A DNA stretch of 64,000 nucleotides from Ezakiella coagulans. Its GTDB lineage: Bacteria > Bacillota > Clostridia > Tissierellales > Peptoniphilaceae. The notes under the pieces were generated by a model. It was not told where the DNA came from, did not search any database, and was given only the letters and a program-made list of their open reading frames with translations. Location: assembly GCF_003096635.1 (NCBI RefSeq), contig NZ_QEKV01000002.1, positions 157,388 through 221,387 on the forward strand, read 5' to 3'. How positions within the stretch are numbered: the first letter of the stretch is position 1; the number at the start of each line of letters is the position of its first letter. Of the stretch, positions 10,424 to 19,694 are shown piece after piece. Both the position numbers and the translations under genes were made by a program.

Positions 10424-12157
10424 ATGATTAACCTTAAAATCAACGGAATAGATGTAAGTGTGGAGAAGGGCACTACCATTTTGCAGGCGGCAAATATGAT
10501 AGATATCCAGATTCCAACACTTTGTCATATGGATTTACACGACATAAAATATATAAATAAACTAGCAAGCTGTAGAGTTTGTATGGTTGAAGATAAAAAA
10601 AGTGGAAAACTTTTTCCATCATGTGCAACACCTGTAAAGGAAGGCATGATTATTGAAACTGATTCCATCAGAGCTGTTCAAGCTAGAAGAACTGTTGTAG
10701 AACTTCTTCTTTCGGATCACCCGAATTCTTGTTTGACATGTGCGAAGAACCTCGACTGTCAACTTCAAAAAATAGCTCACGATCTTGGAATAAGAGAAAT
10801 TCCATATCAAGGTGAAATGAGACAACTTCCGATTGACGCAAACAGCCTTTCGCTTGTGAGGGATCCTAACAAATGTATCCTTTGCAGAAGATGCGAAACT
10901 ATGTGTAATGAAGTTCAAACAGTAGGTGCACTTGCTGAAATCGGAAGGGGCTTTTATACTCACGTCGGCAGCACTTTTAACAGATCTATGTACGAAACGA
11001 CGTGCACATTCTGCGGTCAATGCTTGAGCGTTTGTCCGACAGGTGCCCTAACGGAAGTTTCAAATGTGAGAAAAGTTTGGAAAGCACTCCATTCGGACAA
11101 GACTGTTATAGTTCAAACAGCACCGGCTGTAAGAGTTGCACTCGGCGAAATGTTCGGCATGGAACCGGGAACTGTTGTGACAGGAAAGATGGTTACAGCT
11201 CTAAGAAAACTCGGATTTGATATGATTTTTGACACTAACTTTGCAGCGGACCTCACAATTGTTGAAGAAGCAAATGAATTTGTCGAAAGAATGAAAGGAA
11301 ACGGTAAGCTTCCGATTTTAACTTCATGTTGTCCGGGTTGGGTAAACTTTATGGAGCAACAATTCTCAGATATGATTGATATTCCAAGCACATGTAAGAG
11401 TCCGCATGAAATGTTCGGTGCAATTGCAAAGTCATATCTCTGCGAAAAGCTTAATATTAAACCGGAAGACATGGTTGTTGTTTCAGTAATGCCATGTATT
11501 GCAAAGAAATTTGAAGCAGCAAGACCGGAACTCGAACACAAGGGAGCATCCGATGTTGACATGGTTATAACGACAAGAGAACTCGCATCGATGATTAAAG
11601 AAGCTGGAATTCATTTCACAGAACTTCCGGATGATGACTTTGACGATCCAATGGGAGAGTCCACAGGTGCAGGTGCAATTTTCGGGGCAACGGGCGGAGT
11701 TATCGAAGCGACTGTAAGAACAGCTTATGAAACTTTGACCGGCAAGGAACTTGAAAAGCTCGAGTTCACAGATTTGAGAGGGCTCACAGGCATCAAAGAA
11801 ACCACTGTTAAAATTGGTGATAGAGAAGTCAGAATTGCGGTTGCAAATGGGCTTGGAAACACGAGAAAACTTTTAAACAAAGTTAAGAGCGGCGAAGAAA
11901 AGTTTGATGCAATTGAAGTTATGGCGTGTCCTGGCGGATGCATCGGCGGTGGTGGACAACCTTTCCACCATGGTGACATCAGCATACTGAAGAGAAGAGC
12001 TGAAGGAATTTACAGTGTTGACCACAACAAAAAGCTTAGAAAATCACACGAAAATCCAAAGATTATAGAGCTCTATGAAACATATCTCGGAGAAGTTGCA
12101 GGACCAAGAGCACACGAACTTCTTCATACAAGTTATACAGCAAAACCAAAACTATAA
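10424..12157 (+). CDS. hymC: [FeFe] hydrogenase catalytic subunit
   Basis: 577 residues, preceded by GGAGG. Domains in order: N-terminal [2Fe-2S] (C50, C53, C67), a His-Cys3 cluster (HPNSCLTC, residues 99-106, plus C112), two [4Fe-4S] motifs (CILCRRCETMC 151-161; CTFCGQCLSVC 194-204), then the H-cluster signatures TSCCPGW (300-306), MPCIAKK and MACPGGCIGGGGQP. All catalytic motifs are intact, so it should produce or consume H2. With HymA and HymB it re-oxidises NADH, possibly with ferredoxin. A strong terminator follows. The maturases HydE/F/G are not in this window. Confidence 0.93.
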   Translation: MINLKINGIDVSVEKGTTILQAANMIDIQIPTLCHMDLHDIKYINKLASCRVCMVEDKKSGKLFPSCATPVKEGMIIETDSIRAVQARRTVVELLLSDHPNSCLTCAKNLDCQLQKIAHDLGIREIPYQGEMRQLPIDANSLSLVRDPNKCILCRRCETMCNEVQTVGALAEIGRGFYTHVGSTFNRSMYETTCTFCGQCLSVCPTGALTEVSNVRKVWKALHSDKTVIVQTAPAVRVALGEMFGMEPGTVVTGKMVTALRKLGFDMIFDTNFAADLTIVEEANEFVERMKGNGKLPILTSCCPGWVNFMEQQFSDMIDIPSTCKSPHEMFGAIAKSYLCEKLNIKPEDMVVVSVMPCIAKKFEAARPELEHKGASDVDMVITTRELASMIKEAGIHFTELPDDDFDDPMGESTGAGAIFGATGGVIEATVRTAYETLTGKELEKLEFTDLRGLTGIKETTVKIGDREVRIAVANGLGNTRKLLNKVKSGEEKFDAIEVMACPGGCIGGGGQPFHHGDISILKRRAEGIYSVDHNKKLRKSHENPKIIELYETYLGEVAGPRAHELLHTSYTAKPKL

Positions 12158-12167
12158 TTTAAATTAT

Positions 12168-12200
12168 CCCCCGCGCATAGAATTTGCGTTCGGGGGTTTA
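12168..12200 (+). terminator. Terminator of hymABC
   Basis: Stem cccccgcgca / tgcgttcggggg with a two-base bulge, followed by TTTATTTAT. Confidence 0.75.
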
Positions 12201-12263
12201 TTTATACCTTTTTATGAACATTTATCTTTATATTGGGTATAAGTAAGATAGTGGAGGTGTAAT

Positions 12264-13208
12264 ATGCTAAAGTTTATGAAAAAAATTCCGGGAGGACTCC
12301 TTCTGGTACCTATGCTTATAAGTGCGCTTTTTGCAACATTTTTGCCGGATATATTTAAAATAGGCGGAATGACCGAAGCGTTTTATACAACAAAGGGAAT
12401 CAACTACATAGTCGCACTTGTGTGTTTCTGTTCATCAGCGGCACTCGATTTGGAAAAGATGAAAAAAGTTATACGAAAACAAGGCTCAATTCTTGCACTA
12501 AAAGTTGCAATCTGTTTTTTGTTTTCTTTTTTATATTTTAAATTTTTTGGTATGAATGGAATTTTTGGAATTTCGGCAATTGCTTTTACCGCAACGATTT
12601 GTTCATTAAATCCGTCACTCTATCTTGCTCTCGTCTCCGATTACGGCGATCCGGGAGATGAAGCGGCATTTGGACTCACAGGACTTCTTTGTGTTCCGGC
12701 ATTTCCGATGCTTGTTTACAGCGTGTCTAAAGTATCGGGCGTCGACTGGATGCCTGTTGTGTCGGTTCTAGTTCCAATTGTTTCGGGAATCGTTATTGGA
12801 AATCTCGATAAAGATTTGGGCAAATTTTTTGCAGGAGCAGTTCCGATTTTAACGCCGTTTATGGGTTGGGCCTTCGGTGCAGGTATCAATTTGATTGCAG
12901 CATTTAAAGCGGGCTTAGAAGGAATTCTTCTTACGGTAATTTTCTATGTCGTATCATTCCCACTTCTTTGGTTATTTGAAACAAAAGTTTTGAAGGAAAG
13001 CGGAATAACAACATTTGCAATTTCCTCAATCGCGGGACTCAGTGTTTCCGTGCCTTCGCTTATTGCAGCTGCTGACCCGAGCGTCGCAGATATTGCAAGC
13101 GTGGCGGTTGCGCAAATTGCTTTGGGCGTTGTTATTACCAGCATCATAACGCCGTATATTACAGCGGTTTATGCAAAGAAAAAGGGAATTGAAAAGAGAG
13201 TACTATAA
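12264..13208 (+). CDS. kdgT: 2-keto-3-deoxygluconate permease family transporter
   Basis: 314-residue protein with about ten transmembrane helices that begins KIPGGLLLVPM, the signature N-terminus of KdgT. Family members import 2-keto-3-deoxygluconate with protons. Ribosome binding site GTGGAGGTG. It is followed 21 bases later by an M20 amidohydrolase, not by sugar-acid catabolic genes, so the true substrate here may differ. Membrane localisation is certain; substrate is by family only. Confidence 0.8.
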   Translation: MLKFMKKIPGGLLLVPMLISALFATFLPDIFKIGGMTEAFYTTKGINYIVALVCFCSSAALDLEKMKKVIRKQGSILALKVAICFLFSFLYFKFFGMNGIFGISAIAFTATICSLNPSLYLALVSDYGDPGDEAAFGLTGLLCVPAFPMLVYSVSKVSGVDWMPVVSVLVPIVSGIVIGNLDKDLGKFFAGAVPILTPFMGWAFGAGINLIAAFKAGLEGILLTVIFYVVSFPLLWLFETKVLKESGITTFAISSIAGLSVSVPSLIAAADPSVADIASVAVAQIALGVVITSIITPYITAVYAKKKGIEKRVL

Positions 13209-13229
13209 ATAAAAATCTATGGAGGTATT

Positions 13230-14399
13230 ATGACTAATTATTTTGAAAAAGCAAAAGAATATAAAGATCAATTAATTGAGAACAGAAGGAGTTTACACCA
13301 AATGCCTGAAACTGGGCTTTCACTTCCTAACACAAAAAAGTTTGTTATGGAAAAGCTAAAAGCATTGGGTCTTGAAGTTAAAGAACTTGGAGAATCAGGA
13401 CTTTCTGTTTTAATCGAAGGTGAAAAGGGAGACGGCAAGTGCATTCTCGTGAGGGCGGATATGGACGCTCTGCCGATGAAGGAAGAAAGCGGTCTTCCGT
13501 TTTCGGCAACCGGTGACAAAGCACACACTTGCGGACACGATCTTCACGCAGCAATTGCTATTTCCGCAGCGGAGATGCTTATCAAAGAGAAAAAGAATTT
13601 TAAGGGAAAAGTAAAAATTATGTTCCAACCGGCAGAAGAAATTTTTGAAGGTTCGAAGATGATGATTGAAGAAGGTATTTTGGAAAATCCAAAAGTAGAT
13701 GTGGCAATCGCTCTTCACACTGCACTTGATGAGGAACCGGGTTCGGTTGAATATAACGAAGGATATTTTACGACAAGCTGCGACAACTTTAAAATAAATA
13801 TTAAAGGCAAAGGTGGGCACGGTGCGTATCCGCACACGACTATCGACCCGATAAATGCTGCTTTTAACATTTATCAAAATTTTATGGAACTTGTCGGAAG
13901 AGAAGCACCACCTCAAGAAACGGTCACTCTTACATTCGGAATGATGAGTGCCGGTTCAAATTCTAACATAATTCCTGAAACAGCTGAACTTCAAGGTACT
14001 CTTAGAACTTATAGTCCGGAAGTTAGAAAGAATTTAAAAGCACGTATGCAAGATATTGTCGATGGTGTGATGAAGACAACGAGAAGTGAAATAAATCTCG
14101 ACTTTTTCGCAGGAGTTCCGAGTCTTTTATCGGATCCGAAGCTAACTGCAGAACTTGTAGGATATATTAAAAAAACAAATCCGGAATTAAAACTCATTCC
14201 GAATATGCAAATTATGGCGAGCGAAGATATGGCACTCGTTGCTGAAAGAGTTCCGACCACATATTTTATGCTCAATTCAAAAGTTGAAGGAAATAATTTC
14301 AGCCACCACAATCCGGGTGTCGAATTTAATGAAGATGCACTTCCAATTGGACTTGGTCTAATTGTAACCTCGGCAATAGATTGGCTAAATAACAATTAA
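13230..14399 (+). CDS. M20 family amidohydrolase (hippurate hydrolase/aminoacylase-like)
   Basis: 389 residues. Metal-ligand and catalytic motifs are visible: RADMDALPM, TCGHDLHAA, FQPAEE and the C-terminal SHHNPGVEF, as in the M20D group (N-acyl-amino-acid amidohydrolases). The central KGKGGHGAYPH segment is the dimerisation-domain His motif. Cytosolic, probably releasing amino acids from N-acylated or conjugated forms. Ribosome binding site TGGAGG; cotranscribed with the KdgT-type permease. Confidence 0.85.
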   Translation: MTNYFEKAKEYKDQLIENRRSLHQMPETGLSLPNTKKFVMEKLKALGLEVKELGESGLSVLIEGEKGDGKCILVRADMDALPMKEESGLPFSATGDKAHTCGHDLHAAIAISAAEMLIKEKKNFKGKVKIMFQPAEEIFEGSKMMIEEGILENPKVDVAIALHTALDEEPGSVEYNEGYFTTSCDNFKINIKGKGGHGAYPHTTIDPINAAFNIYQNFMELVGREAPPQETVTLTFGMMSAGSNSNIIPETAELQGTLRTYSPEVRKNLKARMQDIVDGVMKTTRSEINLDFFAGVPSLLSDPKLTAELVGYIKKTNPELKLIPNMQIMASEDMALVAERVPTTYFMLNSKVEGNNFSHHNPGVEFNEDALPIGLGLIVTSAIDWLNNN

Positions 14400-14408
14400 A
14401 AAGATTTC

Positions 14409-14448
14409 AAAATATCTATGTTTGTGAGAACTCTCATAGATATTTTTT
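14409..14448 (+). terminator. Terminator of the permease/amidohydrolase operon
   Basis: Stem aatatctatg (14411-14420) / catagatatt (14435-14444), followed by TTTT. Confidence 0.75.
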
Positions 14449-14499
14449 ATATTTTCATCCGATTTATTAAAATTAATGATACGATTTTATAAAAAGGTA

Positions 14500-14552
14500 T
14501 TGACGTTTTTAAAATTAGATGATATAATAACATATAGAAAGATTTCTATATG
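14500..14552 (+). promoter_or_regulatory. arsR promoter with perfect palindromic operator
   Basis: TTGACG at 14500-14505 and TATAAT at 14523-14528, 17 bp apart. Directly downstream, catatagaaa-GA-tttctatatg (14531-14552) is a perfect 10-bp inverted repeat covering the expected transcription start. Placement fits an ArsR dimer site for autorepression; binding itself is inferred. Confidence 0.8.
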
Positions 14553-14562
14553 AGGTGAGATT

Positions 14563-14976
14563 TTGGATAAGGTATATAACGATACAGCGAAAATATTGAA
14601 AGTGTTGTCCGATCCGAAGCGTTTGCGCATCGTGGACATGCTTTCTTGCGGTGAGCTGTGTGCTTGTGAACTTTTGGAGGCGTTTCATATAACGCAACCT
14701 ACTTTGTCTCACGACATGAAGCAGCTCGTGAATTTAAAATTGGTGAATTTTCGCAGAGAAGGAAAAAATGTTTATTATTGTCTGAATCAGTCCACTTTGA
14801 ACAATTTGCAGAAAACTTTAGATATCATGTTCTCAGATAAACCGGATTGTATCTGTCACAAGATTTTAAACAACGGAAGAGAAGGTGATTCCAATTGCGA
14901 TTGCTGTTGCGACGATGAAAGTGAATCGGATTGTGGTTGCGAAAGCGATAGAGACTGCAGTTGTGGGACAAAATAA
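14563..14976 (+). CDS. arsR: ArsR/SmtB-family arsenite-responsive repressor with Cys-rich tail
   Basis: 137-residue winged-helix repressor starting at TTG after GAGGTGAG. ELCACELL (residues 31-38) holds the paired cysteines C33/C35 of the alpha-3 arsenite sensor, followed by the recognition helix ITQPTLSHDMKQL. Residues 112-135 form an extra tail, CDCCC...CGC...CSC, rich in Asp/Glu/Ser and absent from ordinary ArsR proteins (about 110-120 residues). It may bind metal. Likely represses its own promoter and, through a matching half site, arsD-arsA-acr3. Confidence 0.9.
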   Translation: MDKVYNDTAKILKVLSDPKRLRIVDMLSCGELCACELLEAFHITQPTLSHDMKQLVNLKLVNFRREGKNVYYCLNQSTLNNLQKTLDIMFSDKPDCICHKILNNGREGDSNCDCCCDDESESDCGCESDRDCSCGTK

Positions 14977-15008
14977 GATTTACAATTATGTTTGAATTGT
15001 ATTAATAC

Positions 15009-15057
15009 GCCGATGCATATTTTGGCATCGGCTATAATTAAACATCACATATAGAAA
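15009..15057 (+). promoter_or_regulatory. arsR-arsD intergenic hairpin, -10 box and ArsR half site
   Basis: An 8-bp hairpin gccgatgc / gcatcggc (15009-15016 / 15025-15032) is followed by TATAAT (15033-15038), then catatagaaa at 15048-15057, an exact copy of one arm of the arsR operator. No good -35 is seen and the hairpin lacks a T-run, so this is either a weak second promoter under ArsR control or an attenuating element. Confidence 0.5.
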
Positions 15058-15088
15058 ATCTTCAATGTATTATAAAGGAGAGATTATT

Positions 15089-15640
15089 ATGAGCAAGATG
15101 TGTATCTATGAACCTGCCCTATGTTGTGAAACGGGCCTTTGCGGAGTCAATGTGGACCCTGAACTTCTTCGTATTTCTACAGTTTTGAATACGTTAAAAA
15201 ATGAAGGGGTAGAAATTGAAAGATTTAATTTAAACAGCGCACCAATGGAATTTGTCAAAAATAATATTGTCAACCAATATTTAAATGATAAGGGTGTCGA
15301 AGGTTTGCCTGTTGTGACTTTGGACGGAGAGATTGTAATAGAGGGAAGGTACCCTGCAAATGATGAGATATTGACTCTTTTAAATCTGCCGGCGGAAATG
15401 CTTCTTCCAAAAGGGGCGACATCATGTTGCAGCGGAGACGATGACGACACATGTTGCTGTGGAGACGATGACGACACATGTTGCAGCGGAGACGATGACG
15501 ACACATGTTGGTGTGGAGATTACGATGACTCATGTTGCAGCGGAGACGATGACGACACTTGTTGCTGTGGAGACAGAAAGGATAAAGAAGTTTCAAAGAA
15601 TGACAAAAAAGAAGGCGGATGCTCCTGTGGATGTTGTTAA
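15089..15640 (+). CDS. arsD: ArsD arsenic metallochaperone with repetitive Cys/Asp-rich tail
   Basis: 183 residues from the ATG after AAAGGAG. The metal-site cysteines C12, C13 and C18 are at the canonical ArsD positions; they hand As(III) to the ArsA ATPase. The thioredoxin-like core ends near residue 108. Beyond it sits an extra 75-residue tail of repeats CC(S/C)GDDDDT, ending CSCGCC, while typical ArsD proteins end near 110-120. The tail has about 20 cysteines and more than 20 Asp. It may act as an added metal or metalloid trap. Placed 20 bases before arsA. Confidence 0.92.
   Translation: MSKMCIYEPALCCETGLCGVNVDPELLRISTVLNTLKNEGVEIERFNLNSAPMEFVKNNIVNQYLNDKGVEGLPVVTLDGEIVIEGRYPANDEILTLLNLPAEMLLPKGATSCCSGDDDDTCCCGDDDDTCCSGDDDDTCWCGDYDDSCCSGDDDDTCCCGDRKDKEVSKNDKKEGGCSCGCC
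15425..15574 (+). repeat. 27-bp tandem repeats inside arsD
   Basis: Five full units plus a partial sixth, starting at 15425, 15452, 15479, 15506, 15533 and 15560. Each encodes nine residues, consensus CC(S/C)GDDDDT. The fourth unit has drifted most (CWCGDYDDS). Confidence 0.9.
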
Positions 15641-15659
15641 GAAAAATGGGGGGACAAAT

Positions 15660-17402
15660 ATGTATGAACTTTTTATGCCTGACAAAAACCATTTGACAAA
15701 GTATCTTTTCTTTACCGGAAAAGGCGGTGTCGGAAAAACTTCAATTGCCTGTGCAACGGCTGTAAAGCTTGCGGATGAAGGAAAAAAAGTGCTTCTTATA
15801 AGCACTGATCCCGCATCCAATTTGCAGGATGTTTTTGATAAAAAGTTGGACAACAAGGGTGTTAAAATCGATGAAGTGAGCGGACTTACGGTTTTGAATC
15901 TCGATCCGATAGAGTCGGCAGGGGAATACAAAGAGAGTGTAATTTCGCCGTACAGAGGCAAGCTTCCTCAATCGGTTATTGCCAATATGGAGGAGCAGTT
16001 ATCCGGCTCGTGCACTGTTGAAATTGCTGCATTTAATGAGTTTTCAAATTTCATCACCGACAGCGAAATTTCTGAAAAATATGACAATATTATTTTTGAT
16101 ACGGCTCCTACAGGGCACACTCTTAGAATGTTACAACTTCCGTCGGCATGGAGCGGTTTTATAAGTGAAAATACTCACGGTGCATCTTGTTTGGGACAAC
16201 TTTCAGGGTTAGAGAGTAAAAAAGATATTTATAAAAAAGCTGTGGAAACTTTGAGTGATAAGAATCTCACGACACTTATTTTGGTTACAAGAGCCGAGAA
16301 AACTCCTATTAAGGAAGCAATGAGAGCATCTCAGGAGCTCGCACAGCTTGATATAAACAATCAGATGATGGTTATCAACGGTGTTTTAAAGGAGCCGACG
16401 GACGAGGTTTCCAAAAAGCTCTTTAATAAACAGCAAAACGCTTTAAAAGATATGCCGGAGCATTTGAGAAGTATGAAGACTTATATTGTGCCTTTAAGAG
16501 CGTACAATGTTGTAGGGATAGATAATATTCGTACATTATTTACAGACGACAAAATTTATGATGAGGTTGAAAAATCGGAAGTAGATAGATTGCCACATTT
16601 GAGAGAGGTAATTGACGATTTATATAAAAACGGCAGAAAAGTTATTTTCACTATGGGAAAGGGAGGCGTCGGAAAAACAACTGTTGCAGCCGCTATTGCA
16701 ATGGGAATGGCAGAAAAAGGGGTGAAGGTAAATCTCGCAACAACAGACCCGGCGGCACATTTAAAATATGTTATAAGTGAAAATAAAAACATATCTATGA
16801 GCCGGATAGATGAAAAAGAAGAGTTGAAAAAATATCAGGAAGAGGTTTTATCGAAGGCTAGGGAAACGATGTCCGAAGATGATTTGGAATATATAAAAGA
16901 GGATTTGCGTTCGCCTTGCACACAGGAAATTGCAGTATTCCGCGCTTTTGCGGAAATTGTGGACGAATGTGATGATAAGGTCGTAGTTATAGACACCGCG
17001 CCTACAGGACATACGCTTCTTCTGTTGGACTCATCCCAAAGCTATCACAAAGAAGTTCAACGAACACAGGGAGGAAATACTCCGGAATCGGTCAAGAATC
17101 TTTTACCGAGATTGCGTTCGGAGGAAACCGAAGTTGTAATAGTAACACTTGCCGAGGCAACGCCTGTGTATGAAGCGCTACGTTTGGAGGACGATTTAAA
17201 GAGAGCGAACATCCCTGTAAAATGGTGGATAATAAATTCTTCACTTTATAAAGCAAACTCGACAGACAAGTTGCTTGCGGCAAAAGGAAATGAGGAAGTC
17301 AAGTGGATAAAGAAAGTTGAAGAACATTCCAATGGAAATTTTGCTGTAATTGAGTGGAAAGCAGATGAAATAAAAGGCGAAAAACTTAAAGAATTATTTT
17401 AA
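15660..17402 (+). CDS. arsA: Arsenite efflux pump ATPase ArsA, two-domain
   Basis: 580 residues from the ATG at 15660, after a GGGGGGA ribosome binding site. Two homologous halves each carry a deviant Walker A (GKGGVGKTS at about 21-29; GKGGVGKTT at 333-341) and the signal DTAPTGHTL (147-155; 445-453). The three arsenite-ligand cysteines of ArsA are present at C118, C177 and C420. ArsA is activated by metalloid delivered by ArsD and drives efflux. Here the partner pump is Acr3-type rather than ArsB. Full-length and intact. Confidence 0.95.
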   Translation: MYELFMPDKNHLTKYLFFTGKGGVGKTSIACATAVKLADEGKKVLLISTDPASNLQDVFDKKLDNKGVKIDEVSGLTVLNLDPIESAGEYKESVISPYRGKLPQSVIANMEEQLSGSCTVEIAAFNEFSNFITDSEISEKYDNIIFDTAPTGHTLRMLQLPSAWSGFISENTHGASCLGQLSGLESKKDIYKKAVETLSDKNLTTLILVTRAEKTPIKEAMRASQELAQLDINNQMMVINGVLKEPTDEVSKKLFNKQQNALKDMPEHLRSMKTYIVPLRAYNVVGIDNIRTLFTDDKIYDEVEKSEVDRLPHLREVIDDLYKNGRKVIFTMGKGGVGKTTVAAAIAMGMAEKGVKVNLATTDPAAHLKYVISENKNISMSRIDEKEELKKYQEEVLSKARETMSEDDLEYIKEDLRSPCTQEIAVFRAFAEIVDECDDKVVVIDTAPTGHTLLLLDSSQSYHKEVQRTQGGNTPESVKNLLPRLRSEETEVVIVTLAEATPVYEALRLEDDLKRANIPVKWWIINSSLYKANSTDKLLAAKGNEEVKWIKKVEEHSNGNFAVIEWKADEIKGEKLKELF

Positions 17403-17413
17403 AGGAGAAGTAA

Positions 17414-18451
17414 ATGGAGGAAAATAAAAAAATAACTGCATTTCAAAGACATCTATCGCTTTGGGTGCTTTTGTGTATGGCGGTCGGGATTTTAATAGGT
17501 AGATTTCTGCCTGGCGTTACGGAGTTTTTAGGTAAGTTTGAAATTTCAAATATATCGATTCCGATTGCAGTTTTAATTTGGATTATGATTTATCCGATGA
17601 TGATAAAAGTGGACTTTAATAGCGTAAAAGAAGTGGGTAAAAATCCAAAAGGTTTGTATTTGACTTGGATTGTAAACTGGCTTATAAAGCCATTTACGAT
17701 GTATGGAATAGTATATTTCTTTCTGTTTGTGATTTTTAAAAACTATATTTCTCCGGACCTTGCAAGAGAGTATCTGGCGGGGGCGGTTCTTTTAGGGGCG
17801 GCTCCATGTACTGCTATGGTTTTTGTCTGGAGTGCACTCACAAACGGAAACCCGGCTTATACTGTTGTGCAGGTGGCAACAAATAACTTAATAATACTTG
17901 TCGCTTTTGTGCCGATTGTAAAATTTTTACTGGGGGTTTCAAATGTAAGTGTGCCTTATAGTACTCTCTTTTTGAGCGTTTTTCTGTTTGTTGTAATTCC
18001 ACTTGCGGGTGGAATTGTGACAAGGATGACGGTTCTAAAAAAACGCGGCAAAGAATACTTCGAAAGCGAATTTGTTCATAAATTTGACGGAATTACGACT
18101 GTGGGACTTTTATTAACGTTGGTTTTGATTTTTGCATCACAGGCGGAAGTGATTCTTTCAAATCCGCTTCATATCGTTCTTATAGCGATTCCTTTGATAA
18201 TACAGACATTTTTCATTTTCTTTGTTTCTTTCGGAGTTGCAAAGTCAATACGTTTACCGTTTGATATTGCAGCACCGGCGGGAATGATTGGCGCATCGAA
18301 TTTTTTTGAGCTGGCGGTTGCGGTTGCAATTGCACTTTTCGGAACGACAAGTCCTGCAGCACTTGCGACAACTGTCGGAGTTTTAACGGAAGTGCCGGTG
18401 ATGCTGACTCTAGTAAAAATTGCAAATAATTCAAGATATAAATTTGAATGA
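17414..18451 (+). CDS. acr3: Acr3-family arsenite permease
   Basis: 345-residue membrane protein with about ten helices. GAAPCTAMVFVWS carries the essential Cys of helix 4, and the Glu in LTEVPVMLTLV near the C-terminus is the other conserved residue. Exports As(III), energised by ArsA or the proton gradient. Ribosome binding site AAAGGAG, 11 bases after arsA; last gene of the arsenic operon, followed by a terminator. Confidence 0.93.
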   Translation: MEENKKITAFQRHLSLWVLLCMAVGILIGRFLPGVTEFLGKFEISNISIPIAVLIWIMIYPMMIKVDFNSVKEVGKNPKGLYLTWIVNWLIKPFTMYGIVYFFLFVIFKNYISPDLAREYLAGAVLLGAAPCTAMVFVWSALTNGNPAYTVVQVATNNLIILVAFVPIVKFLLGVSNVSVPYSTLFLSVFLFVVIPLAGGIVTRMTVLKKRGKEYFESEFVHKFDGITTVGLLLTLVLIFASQAEVILSNPLHIVLIAIPLIIQTFFIFFVSFGVAKSIRLPFDIAAPAGMIGASNFFELAVAVAIALFGTTSPAALATTVGVLTEVPVMLTLVKIANNSRYKFE

Positions 18452-18458
18452 TATTATA

Positions 18459-18493
18459 AAATATCCGGAATAATATTTCCGGGTATTTTTTTG
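18459..18493 (+). terminator. Terminator of the ars operon
   Basis: Stem aatatccggaa / ttccgggtatt (one G-U pair), then seven T. Confidence 0.8.
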
Positions 18494-18566
18494 TTGTCTT
18501 ATTTTTTTAAGTTTCATTTGTAGTTTTATATAAAAAATATTATAATATAAAGAGGAGGAGAAAAAT

Positions 18567-19694
18567 ATGTATTTAAAAAATGGAAAATATTTGACAAGAG
18601 ACGGAATTTTAAAAGATAATCCGGGAATCTTGGTGGAAGACGGAAAAATAAAATCAATCGGAGAAAGTTCGGACAAAGATGTAATTGACTGCACAGGGAA
18701 AATTATTTTTCCAGGATTTGTTGAAGCACACTGTCACACAGGTCTTGATGAACAAGACATCGGGTATGAAGGACAGGACTACAATGAAGCAAGCGAACCT
18801 ATTCAAGCGGATTGTCGCGGTCTTGACGGAATAAATCCTTTCGAATCAGGTATAAAGGATGCAATGGAAGGTGGAGTTACAACTTTCAACGCCGGACCGG
18901 GTTCGGCAAATGTTATTGGTGGAACTTTCTGCTGTTTGAAATCATTTGGATCATCAGTCGATGAAATGGTTATAAAAAAAGACAGTGCAATGAAAATTGC
19001 ATTCGGTGAAAATCCAAAGAGATTTTACGGTCAGTCTCAAAAGAAAAGCCCTTATACAAGAATGAAAATCGCTTCACTTTTGAGAGAATATATAAACAAA
19101 GCTATTGAATATGGAAAGGACAAGGAACACAAATTCGATTTGGGACTTGAAGCATTCCAAAAAGTTATAAATCATGAAATCCCTCTAAAGGCACACTGCC
19201 ACAGAGCGGACGACATTGCAACTGCTATAAGAATTGCAAAAGAATTCGGCCTTGGTCTCACGCTCGACCACGTGACGGAAGGACATAAAATTGTGGATTT
19301 GATTAAAAATTCAGGATTTAGCTGTATAGTTGGACCGAGTTTCGGCGGCAGAAGTAAAGTCGAGCTTAAGGATAAATGTTTTGAAACAGCAGGCATTTTG
19401 GCAAATGCAGGAGTTAAAGTCGCAATTATGACAGACTCGACGGTTATACCGCTCCAAAACCTTACAATGTGCGCAATGCTTGCATACAGACACGGCATGA
19501 AAAAAGAAGATGCATATAAAGCAATCACGATTAACGCTGCGGAAATAATTGGAGTTGAAGACAGAGTCGGCTCGATTGAAGAAGGAAAAGATGCGGACTT
19601 TGCAATTTTCAATGAAGATTTTATGGAATCCACAAACGCAAGATGCGTAAAGACAATAATAGACGGAAAGGTGAGATTTAGTGAAGAAGTATAA
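18567..19694 (+). CDS. Amidohydrolase (imidazolonepropionase-like metal-dependent hydrolase)
   Basis: 375 residues, ribosome binding site GAGGAGG. The family metal motif GFVEAHCHTG (HxH) lies near residues 51-60, later metal His in KAHCHRADD and LDHVTEGH, and the last Asp in IMTDSTVIP. The C-terminal GVEDRVGSIEEGKDADFAIF is the usual composite beta-sandwich ending. Cytosolic hydrolase of cyclic amides or similar; substrate not determined. The 3' end overlaps the HAD gene by 14 bases. Confidence 0.85.
   Translation: MYLKNGKYLTRDGILKDNPGILVEDGKIKSIGESSDKDVIDCTGKIIFPGFVEAHCHTGLDEQDIGYEGQDYNEASEPIQADCRGLDGINPFESGIKDAMEGGVTTFNAGPGSANVIGGTFCCLKSFGSSVDEMVIKKDSAMKIAFGENPKRFYGQSQKKSPYTRMKIASLLREYINKAIEYGKDKEHKFDLGLEAFQKVINHEIPLKAHCHRADDIATAIRIAKEFGLGLTLDHVTEGHKIVDLIKNSGFSCIVGPSFGGRSKVELKDKCFETAGILANAGVKVAIMTDSTVIPLQNLTMCAMLAYRHGMKKEDAYKAITINAAEIIGVEDRVGSIEEGKDADFAIFNEDFMESTNARCVKTIIDGKVRFSEEV

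Follow-up and report, generated by a model that had tools for sequence, protein, structure and literature searches.

An ArsD with an amplified cysteine- and aspartate-rich tail in the ars operon of Ezakiella coagulans, a possible site of As(III) and Sb(III) capture

The ars operon in a 64-kb window of the Ezakiella coagulans genome (the window being the whole stretch of DNA analysed, 64,000 nucleotides) encodes an ArsD in which a normal core is followed by a tandemly repeated, cysteine- and aspartate-rich tail. The tail is best read as an exaggerated form of the C-terminal cysteine pairs already known from ArsD. The protein is proposed to be a working metallochaperone whose tail captures As(III) or Sb(III) through many thiolates and passes the metalloid to the core. 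Binding, stoichiometry and hand-over are all deduced from sequence and literature, and this reading is given a probability of about 0.5. The operon's repressor, ArsR, carries a second Cys/Asp tail. This second tail, and the finding that tails have grown on ArsD repeatedly and separately, are additions of this study.

The ArsD core and its repeat array

The protein matches two ArsD profiles, PF06953 (1.4e-40, 138.9 bits against a cut-off of 27) and NF033727 (4.5e-36, 123.3 bits against a cut-off of 90), and its cysteines C12, C13 and C18 are invariant across a 15-row alignment. In the predicted model the core has pLDDT values mostly of 63-86, falling to 48 in the block of residues 11-20. The best matches of this predicted core in the PDB are three ArsD crystal entries (seven chains, E 6.8e-11 to 4.0e-9), entries that are also matched by the core sequence. 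The likeness to ArsD of the E. coli R773 type (PDB 3mwh, 3kgk, 3ktb) covers the core in full, whether judged by profile, by sequence or by predicted fold, includes C12/C13/C18, and further takes in the C-terminal vicinal cysteine pairs and the adjacency to arsA, which here begins 20 bases past the end of arsD. The two proteins differ in the extent of the C-terminus: the E. coli type has two such pairs, whereas the tail described here has 18 cysteines, of which the six-unit Cys/Asp repeat contributes 14.

At the DNA level, the array at 15417-15574 has the highest Tandem Repeats Finder scores of the window (216 at period 27, with 5.8 copies, and 258 as a 54-bp dimer; the runner-up array scores 120). 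Since the 54-bp period outscores the 27-bp period, the array probably grew partly by dimers. Together with the translation, these results confirm what a sequence-only reading had claimed, namely an ArsD core with C12, C13 and C18 followed by a Cys/Asp tandem repeat and a terminal CSCGCC. Its count of six 27-bp repeats also stood, but the motif that it gave for them, CC(S/C)GDDDDT, is found in only four of the six units. Unit 4 reads CWCGDYDDS, one cysteine having been lost (C to W), and the degenerate sixth unit reads CCCGDRKDK and extends to 15586, where the array ends, and not to 15574. The same reading had put the added cysteines at about 20, which is slightly high. ArsD has cysteines at 5, 12, 13 and 18 and then 18 more from residue 113 to the end, all of them among the 83 residues past position 100, which also hold 25 Asp/Glu. 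Of that reading's interpretation, which holds up in part, the claim that the repeat was recently amplified is borne out by the DNA: units 1 and 3 share one sequence, from which unit 5 departs by one base and unit 2 by two. Units 4 and 6 are 6-10 bases away from the other units, with 3-4 replaced and 1-2 silently changed codons. These replacements and the cysteine lost from unit 4 count against capture by the tail.

The terminal CSCGCC probably represents the ancestral C-terminal cysteine pairs of ArsD. Because it is like the usual ArsD ending, the repeat probably arose between the core and the old tail. The tail is predicted to be disordered (pLDDT about 26-33 in the best of five models, built with 15 sequences, mean pLDDT 56.6). 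No further CCxGDxD array was found in the genome, where a search with one exact DNA pattern gave four matches, all within arsD.

Table 1. Features of the ars operon, in coordinates of the window.
Feature	Position	Strand	Details and evidence
Promoter-like TTGACG-17-TATAAT, upstream of arsR	14500..14528	+	Pattern match only
Perfect inverted repeat CATATAGAAA-ga-TTTCTATATG, directly past the -10	14531..14552	.	Repeat search
arsR, ArsR/SmtB repressor	14563..14976	+	TTG start, 137 aa, ELCACE and DCIC cysteines; PF01022 3.8e-13; NF033788 3.7e-25
Extra Cys/Asp tail of ArsR	14878..14973	+	Final 32 residues contain 8 Cys and 11 Asp/Glu
Hairpin between arsR and arsD, 8-bp stem	15009..15032	+	Folding against shuffles
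Imperfect copy (78%) of the operator-like repeat, before arsD	15044..15066	.	Repeat search
arsD	15089..15640	+	183 aa; ATG start at 15089
ArsD core, residues 1-108, with C12/C13/C18	15089..15412	+	Translation, alignment, structure matches
Six in-frame 27-bp units	15425..15586	+	Repeat finding and unit-by-unit reading
Terminal CSCGCC	15620..15637	+	CC ending common among relatives
arsA, two-domain ATPase	15660..17402	+	580 aa; TIGR04291 2.7e-250
acr3, arsenite efflux permease	17414..18451	+	TIGR00832 2.8e-112

The operon and a second tail on ArsR

The operon is intact, its four genes lying in the order arsR, arsD, arsA and acr3, all on the + strand (Table 1). Profile scores exceed arsenic-specific equivalog cut-offs for ArsD, ArsA and Acr3, and the ArsR/SmtB subfamily cut-off for ArsR. 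ArsA residues C118, C177 and C420 sit where E. coli C113, C172 and C422 (PMC2963123) are expected, their contexts having been judged by eye. The promoter-like site upstream of arsR has 11 of 12 consensus matches and ranks first among 12 sites between 14380 and 15120 (shuffles average 3.6). From their position, this site is a candidate promoter and the inverted repeat that follows it is likely the ArsR operator; the imperfect copy before arsD is a possible second ArsR site. The region between arsR and arsD (14977-15080) folds with a minimum free energy of -21.2 kcal/mol (z -3.20; none of 200 shuffles reached so low a value), and its hairpin is reminiscent of one in Bacillus sp. CDB3, where a hairpin before arsD is described as reducing expression (PMC4562236).

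ArsR ends in REGDSNCDCCCDDESESDCGCESDRDCSCGTK and has 10 cysteines past its HTH core. The fetched loci yield 153 distinct ArsR-like frames, counting this one, and none of the others exceeds 4. Descent of this tail from the ArsD repeat by DNA duplication was considered and rejected: the best 27-mer matches at 18 of 27 positions, a value equalled by 72 of 100 codon shuffles of the ArsR tail. That both As(III)-binding proteins at the head of the operon, ArsR and ArsD, carry Cys/Asp tails with no relation to each other suggests selection for thiolate capacity in this lineage, although as a single case it may be due to chance.

Proposed role of the ArsD tail

ArsD is described as sequestering arsenic and antimony and reducing free As(III) (PMC2963123). 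In E. coli, its residues C12/C13/C18 hand As(III) to ArsA (PMC12607644; PMC4562236), and, as stated in a review, each of its three vicinal cysteine pairs may form a metalloid site (PMC12607644). As(III) is bound by three thiolates each (PMC4562236, PMC13381914), so that by arithmetic the 18 cysteines of the tail could in principle hold up to six. In the mechanism proposed here, which extends these statements in the simplest way, a short C-terminal cysteine-pair segment would have grown by amplification into a flexible and acidic tail with many thiolates. Several As(III) (or Sb(III)) ions would be bound by cysteine thiolates from adjacent units, leaving less free metalloid in the cytosol. The metalloid would pass from the tail to C12/C13/C18 of the core by thiol exchange, then to ArsA, and would be exported via Acr3. 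The Asp runs may help the tail to stay soluble and extended and give it a negative charge. In favour of this mechanism are the intact operon with its arsenic-specific matches, the core cysteines retained in ArsD and the three expected cysteine contexts of ArsA, the cysteine count of the tail and the recurrence of long tails in other ArsDs, the tail on ArsR and the predicted disorder.

Metallothioneins and synthetic phytochelatins likewise have many cysteines in a disordered, low-complexity chain, a likeness of composition. The ArsD tail differs from them in being fused to a chaperone and in lying within an arsenic operon. Assignment to the classical metallothioneins, which are small independent Cys-rich proteins, was rejected, the Cys-rich part being the C-terminus of ArsD.

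What the C-terminal cysteines of ArsD do is less well established than what C12/C13/C18 do. Among the titles and abstract openings seen, none announces an ArsD with an expanded cysteine repeat tail, which does not prove that none has been described. According to a statement from 2025, ars operons are without any found gene for intracellular arsenic sequestration (PMC12093948); arsD could be one such gene if its tail serves for storage.

Tails across ArsD relatives

In searches with PF06953, ArsD was found in 56 of 249 genomes of the order, in 44 of 391 in a sample of the class and in 45 of 398 in a sample of the phylum. Searches around genome G689 found it in 73 of 380 genomes of that genome's class and in 7 of 17 of its genus and family. 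All matches without a locus were fetched from the order, class, phylum and G689-class searches, bar that of G269, a 20-residue PF06953 match. From the 250 frames at E<=1e-10, 16 without an N-terminus, 4 with a cut core and 1 running off its contig were removed, leaving 229, of which 210 are distinct. These 210 are no random sample, because the samples overlap or nest and the named loci were chosen by likeness to the window. No relative was found in viral contigs. On plasmids, 2124 records with ArsD relatives were found, all below 60% identity and none covering 80% of the query in one place.

Tail cysteines among the 210 distinct full-core ArsDs number 0 in 57, 1-3 in 14, 4-5 in 113, 6-7 in 9 and at least 8 in 17. 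The window's ArsD ranks first, followed by one protein with 13 and four with 11. Thus, long cysteine tails are uncommon yet recurrent (17 of 210), with the window the extreme in this set. The 17 come from the window (1), the genera g368 (5) and g556 (4), g580 (2), g613 (2) and three named species, Negativicoccus massiliensis, Oribacterium sinus and Lachnoanaerobaculum orale. Alignment of homologues for tail length, which had been suggested as a check on the tail, gave a divided answer: the nearest relatives are without the repeat, having 5 tail cysteines (L004 and L005) or 4 (the genus mate G002), which fulfils one half of the refutation set for the tail (the other half being an assembly artefact seen in long reads), yet extended tails of cysteine and acidic residues turn up again elsewhere in the family. 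The ArsDs of g368 and g556 (9-13 tail cysteines) resemble that of the window in having the core and then several CCC or CC clusters with acidic and Ser/Gly linkers between them. They differ in unit length, linkers and position in the tree, and the five ArsRs of g368 that were read end with just 2-3 cysteines, unlike that of the window. The repeat unit is 9 aa long in the window and 14 aa in L185, with a similar make-up of cysteine and acidic or Ser/Gly residues.

Separate growth of tails was examined on a quick ArsD tree of 151 of the 210 rows, built from few columns and with 74 of its 148 inner branches open. Left out of it were rows with fewer than 8 tail cysteines that are more than 85% identical (ungapped) to a kept row of the same kind, or that have a core shorter than 90 residues. 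The label of at least 8 cysteines needs six changes on this tree, and its starred branches force at least four, whether gains or losses. A starred clade of nine rows includes g368 and g556. The smallest starred set around the window contains seven short-tailed rows and no second long tail. A slower, 112-row tree that predates the addition of g556, g580 and g613 agrees and places the window as sister to L004, an Oscillospiraceae MAG, with 98/89 support. Between closely related proteins, the cores of L185 and L186 are alike at 97 of 98 residues, the L185 tail having one more CCC unit of 14 residues; those of Aedoeadaptatus coxii (L006) and N. massiliensis (L010) match to the same extent (97 of 98), and their tails have 4 and 8 cysteines, respectively. 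Tail length thus changes while the core barely does. Natural ArsDs with 0, 4, 8, 10, 13 and 18 tail cysteines, some of them near-identical in the core, form a series in which it can be asked whether the tail stores, passes on or senses the metalloid.

Selection on the tail and alternative explanations

The most serious alternative is that the tail arose mostly by neutral slippage during replication, its Cys-rich and repetitive coding sequence drifting in length under little constraint. The identical units and the 54-bp higher-order period speak of recent duplication, as slippage would produce, and since 57 of the 210 ArsDs have no tail cysteine, the tail must be dispensable in the family, which counts against capture by the tail as well. 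Among seven long-tailed sister pairs, residue changes are more frequent in tails (60 of 366 codons) than in cores (30 of 688). Within these tails, the residue has changed in 6 of 70 cysteine codons and in 54 of 296 other codons (Fisher p 0.0498), a marginal signal of selection on cysteine; when only changed codons are compared, silent versus replacing, the difference is not significant (p 0.16). The pairs are uneven: L185 and L186 differ silently at 5 of 10 tail cysteine codons with none replaced, whereas L246 and L247, whose tail alignment is doubtful, have 0 silent and 3 replacing changes at 11. Counting all pairs in two groups, which are not independent, gives 18 silent and 15 replacing changes among 102 tail cysteine codons in one, and 6 and 5 among 84 in the other. 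These comparisons weakly suggest constraint on single tail cysteines. Slippage is opposed by the similar Cys and acidic or Ser/Gly make-up kept in separate lineages despite differing units, by the unrelated Cys/Asp tail on the ArsR of the same operon and by the silent differences between L185 and L186. As the main explanation it is possible, at perhaps one chance in a few.

A wider form of the capture reading is more speculative. The two independently grown tails, on ArsR and ArsD, might together constitute an expandable arsenic store within the operon (an "arsenothionein"), with a capacity set by copy number, tuned by slippage and evolved several times on ArsD in the ars operons of anaerobes. 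This idea is put forward only tentatively and is doubtful as a whole.

A role in regulation is unlikely, though still a serious rival. If ArsD acts as a secondary repressor, the tail could change how it senses metalloid; alternatively, the two tails could desensitise induction by competing for As(III). The C-terminal pairs C112/113 and C119/120 of E. coli ArsD are linked to its repressor role, and a Bacillus ArsD without the C-terminal pairs failed to bind its own promoter (PMC4562236). The operator-like repeat before arsR, its imperfect copy before arsD and the tail on ArsR would also fit. However, one or two pairs would presumably suffice for such a role, and a six-fold array would not be needed.

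Buffering of other soft metals (Zn, Cd, Cu) by a metallothionein-like tail carried on ArsD is improbable. The Cys-rich, metallothionein-like composition allows it, but ArsD, ArsA and Acr3 match arsenic-specific families, and no exporter of Zn, Cd or Cu was named among the eight proteins examined from 10424 to 19691. Cd or Zn is less likely as the ligand than As(III) or Sb(III) because the operon's other three genes match arsenic or metalloregulator families. An assembly artefact behind the copy number, conceivable in a draft genome (1.8 Mb in 20 contigs), is very improbable indeed: the units differ among themselves and the array covers about 160 bp, tails with at least 8 cysteines occur in 16 other distinct ArsDs, including L185 from a one-contig genome, and an error could alter the number of units but not their existence.

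Origin of the operon and other ArsD tails

ArsD was found at the search threshold in just two of the six genomes of the genus, and the window's ArsD is 73% identical (100 columns) to that of a MAG from another family, versus 58% to that of G002. The operon therefore looks acquired. G004 retains the amidohydrolase, PGPase and Maf genes that lie downstream of the operon, and the 19 kb taken from it has no ars match. This locus was rejected as a clean insertion (empty) site, since the three genes that precede the operon likewise had no match there. The ArsD cores of A. coxii, Dialister micraerophilus, N. massiliensis, O. sinus and two Lachnoanaerobaculum spp. share 90-97 of 98 residues pairwise, which suggests that another ArsD lineage is moving among such anaerobes.

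Some relatives carry tails of other kinds. The ArsD frame from 1480 in L090 (G824) has a 100-residue tail, which we take to resemble an AhpD/CMD-type domain, and then the normal CC...CC end, a possible fusion. L129-L132 (G062, G045, G061 and G053) encode a divergent ArsD-like protein in which the profile match starts past the C12/C13/C18 region and an acidic tail ends in CGCGSG(G/S)TCSC; a normal ArsD is also present in three of these four genomes. In L124 (G060, same family), the tail of a long-branched ArsD is acidic, with 13 Asp/Glu and 6 cysteines, and may represent an earlier step towards tails of this kind.
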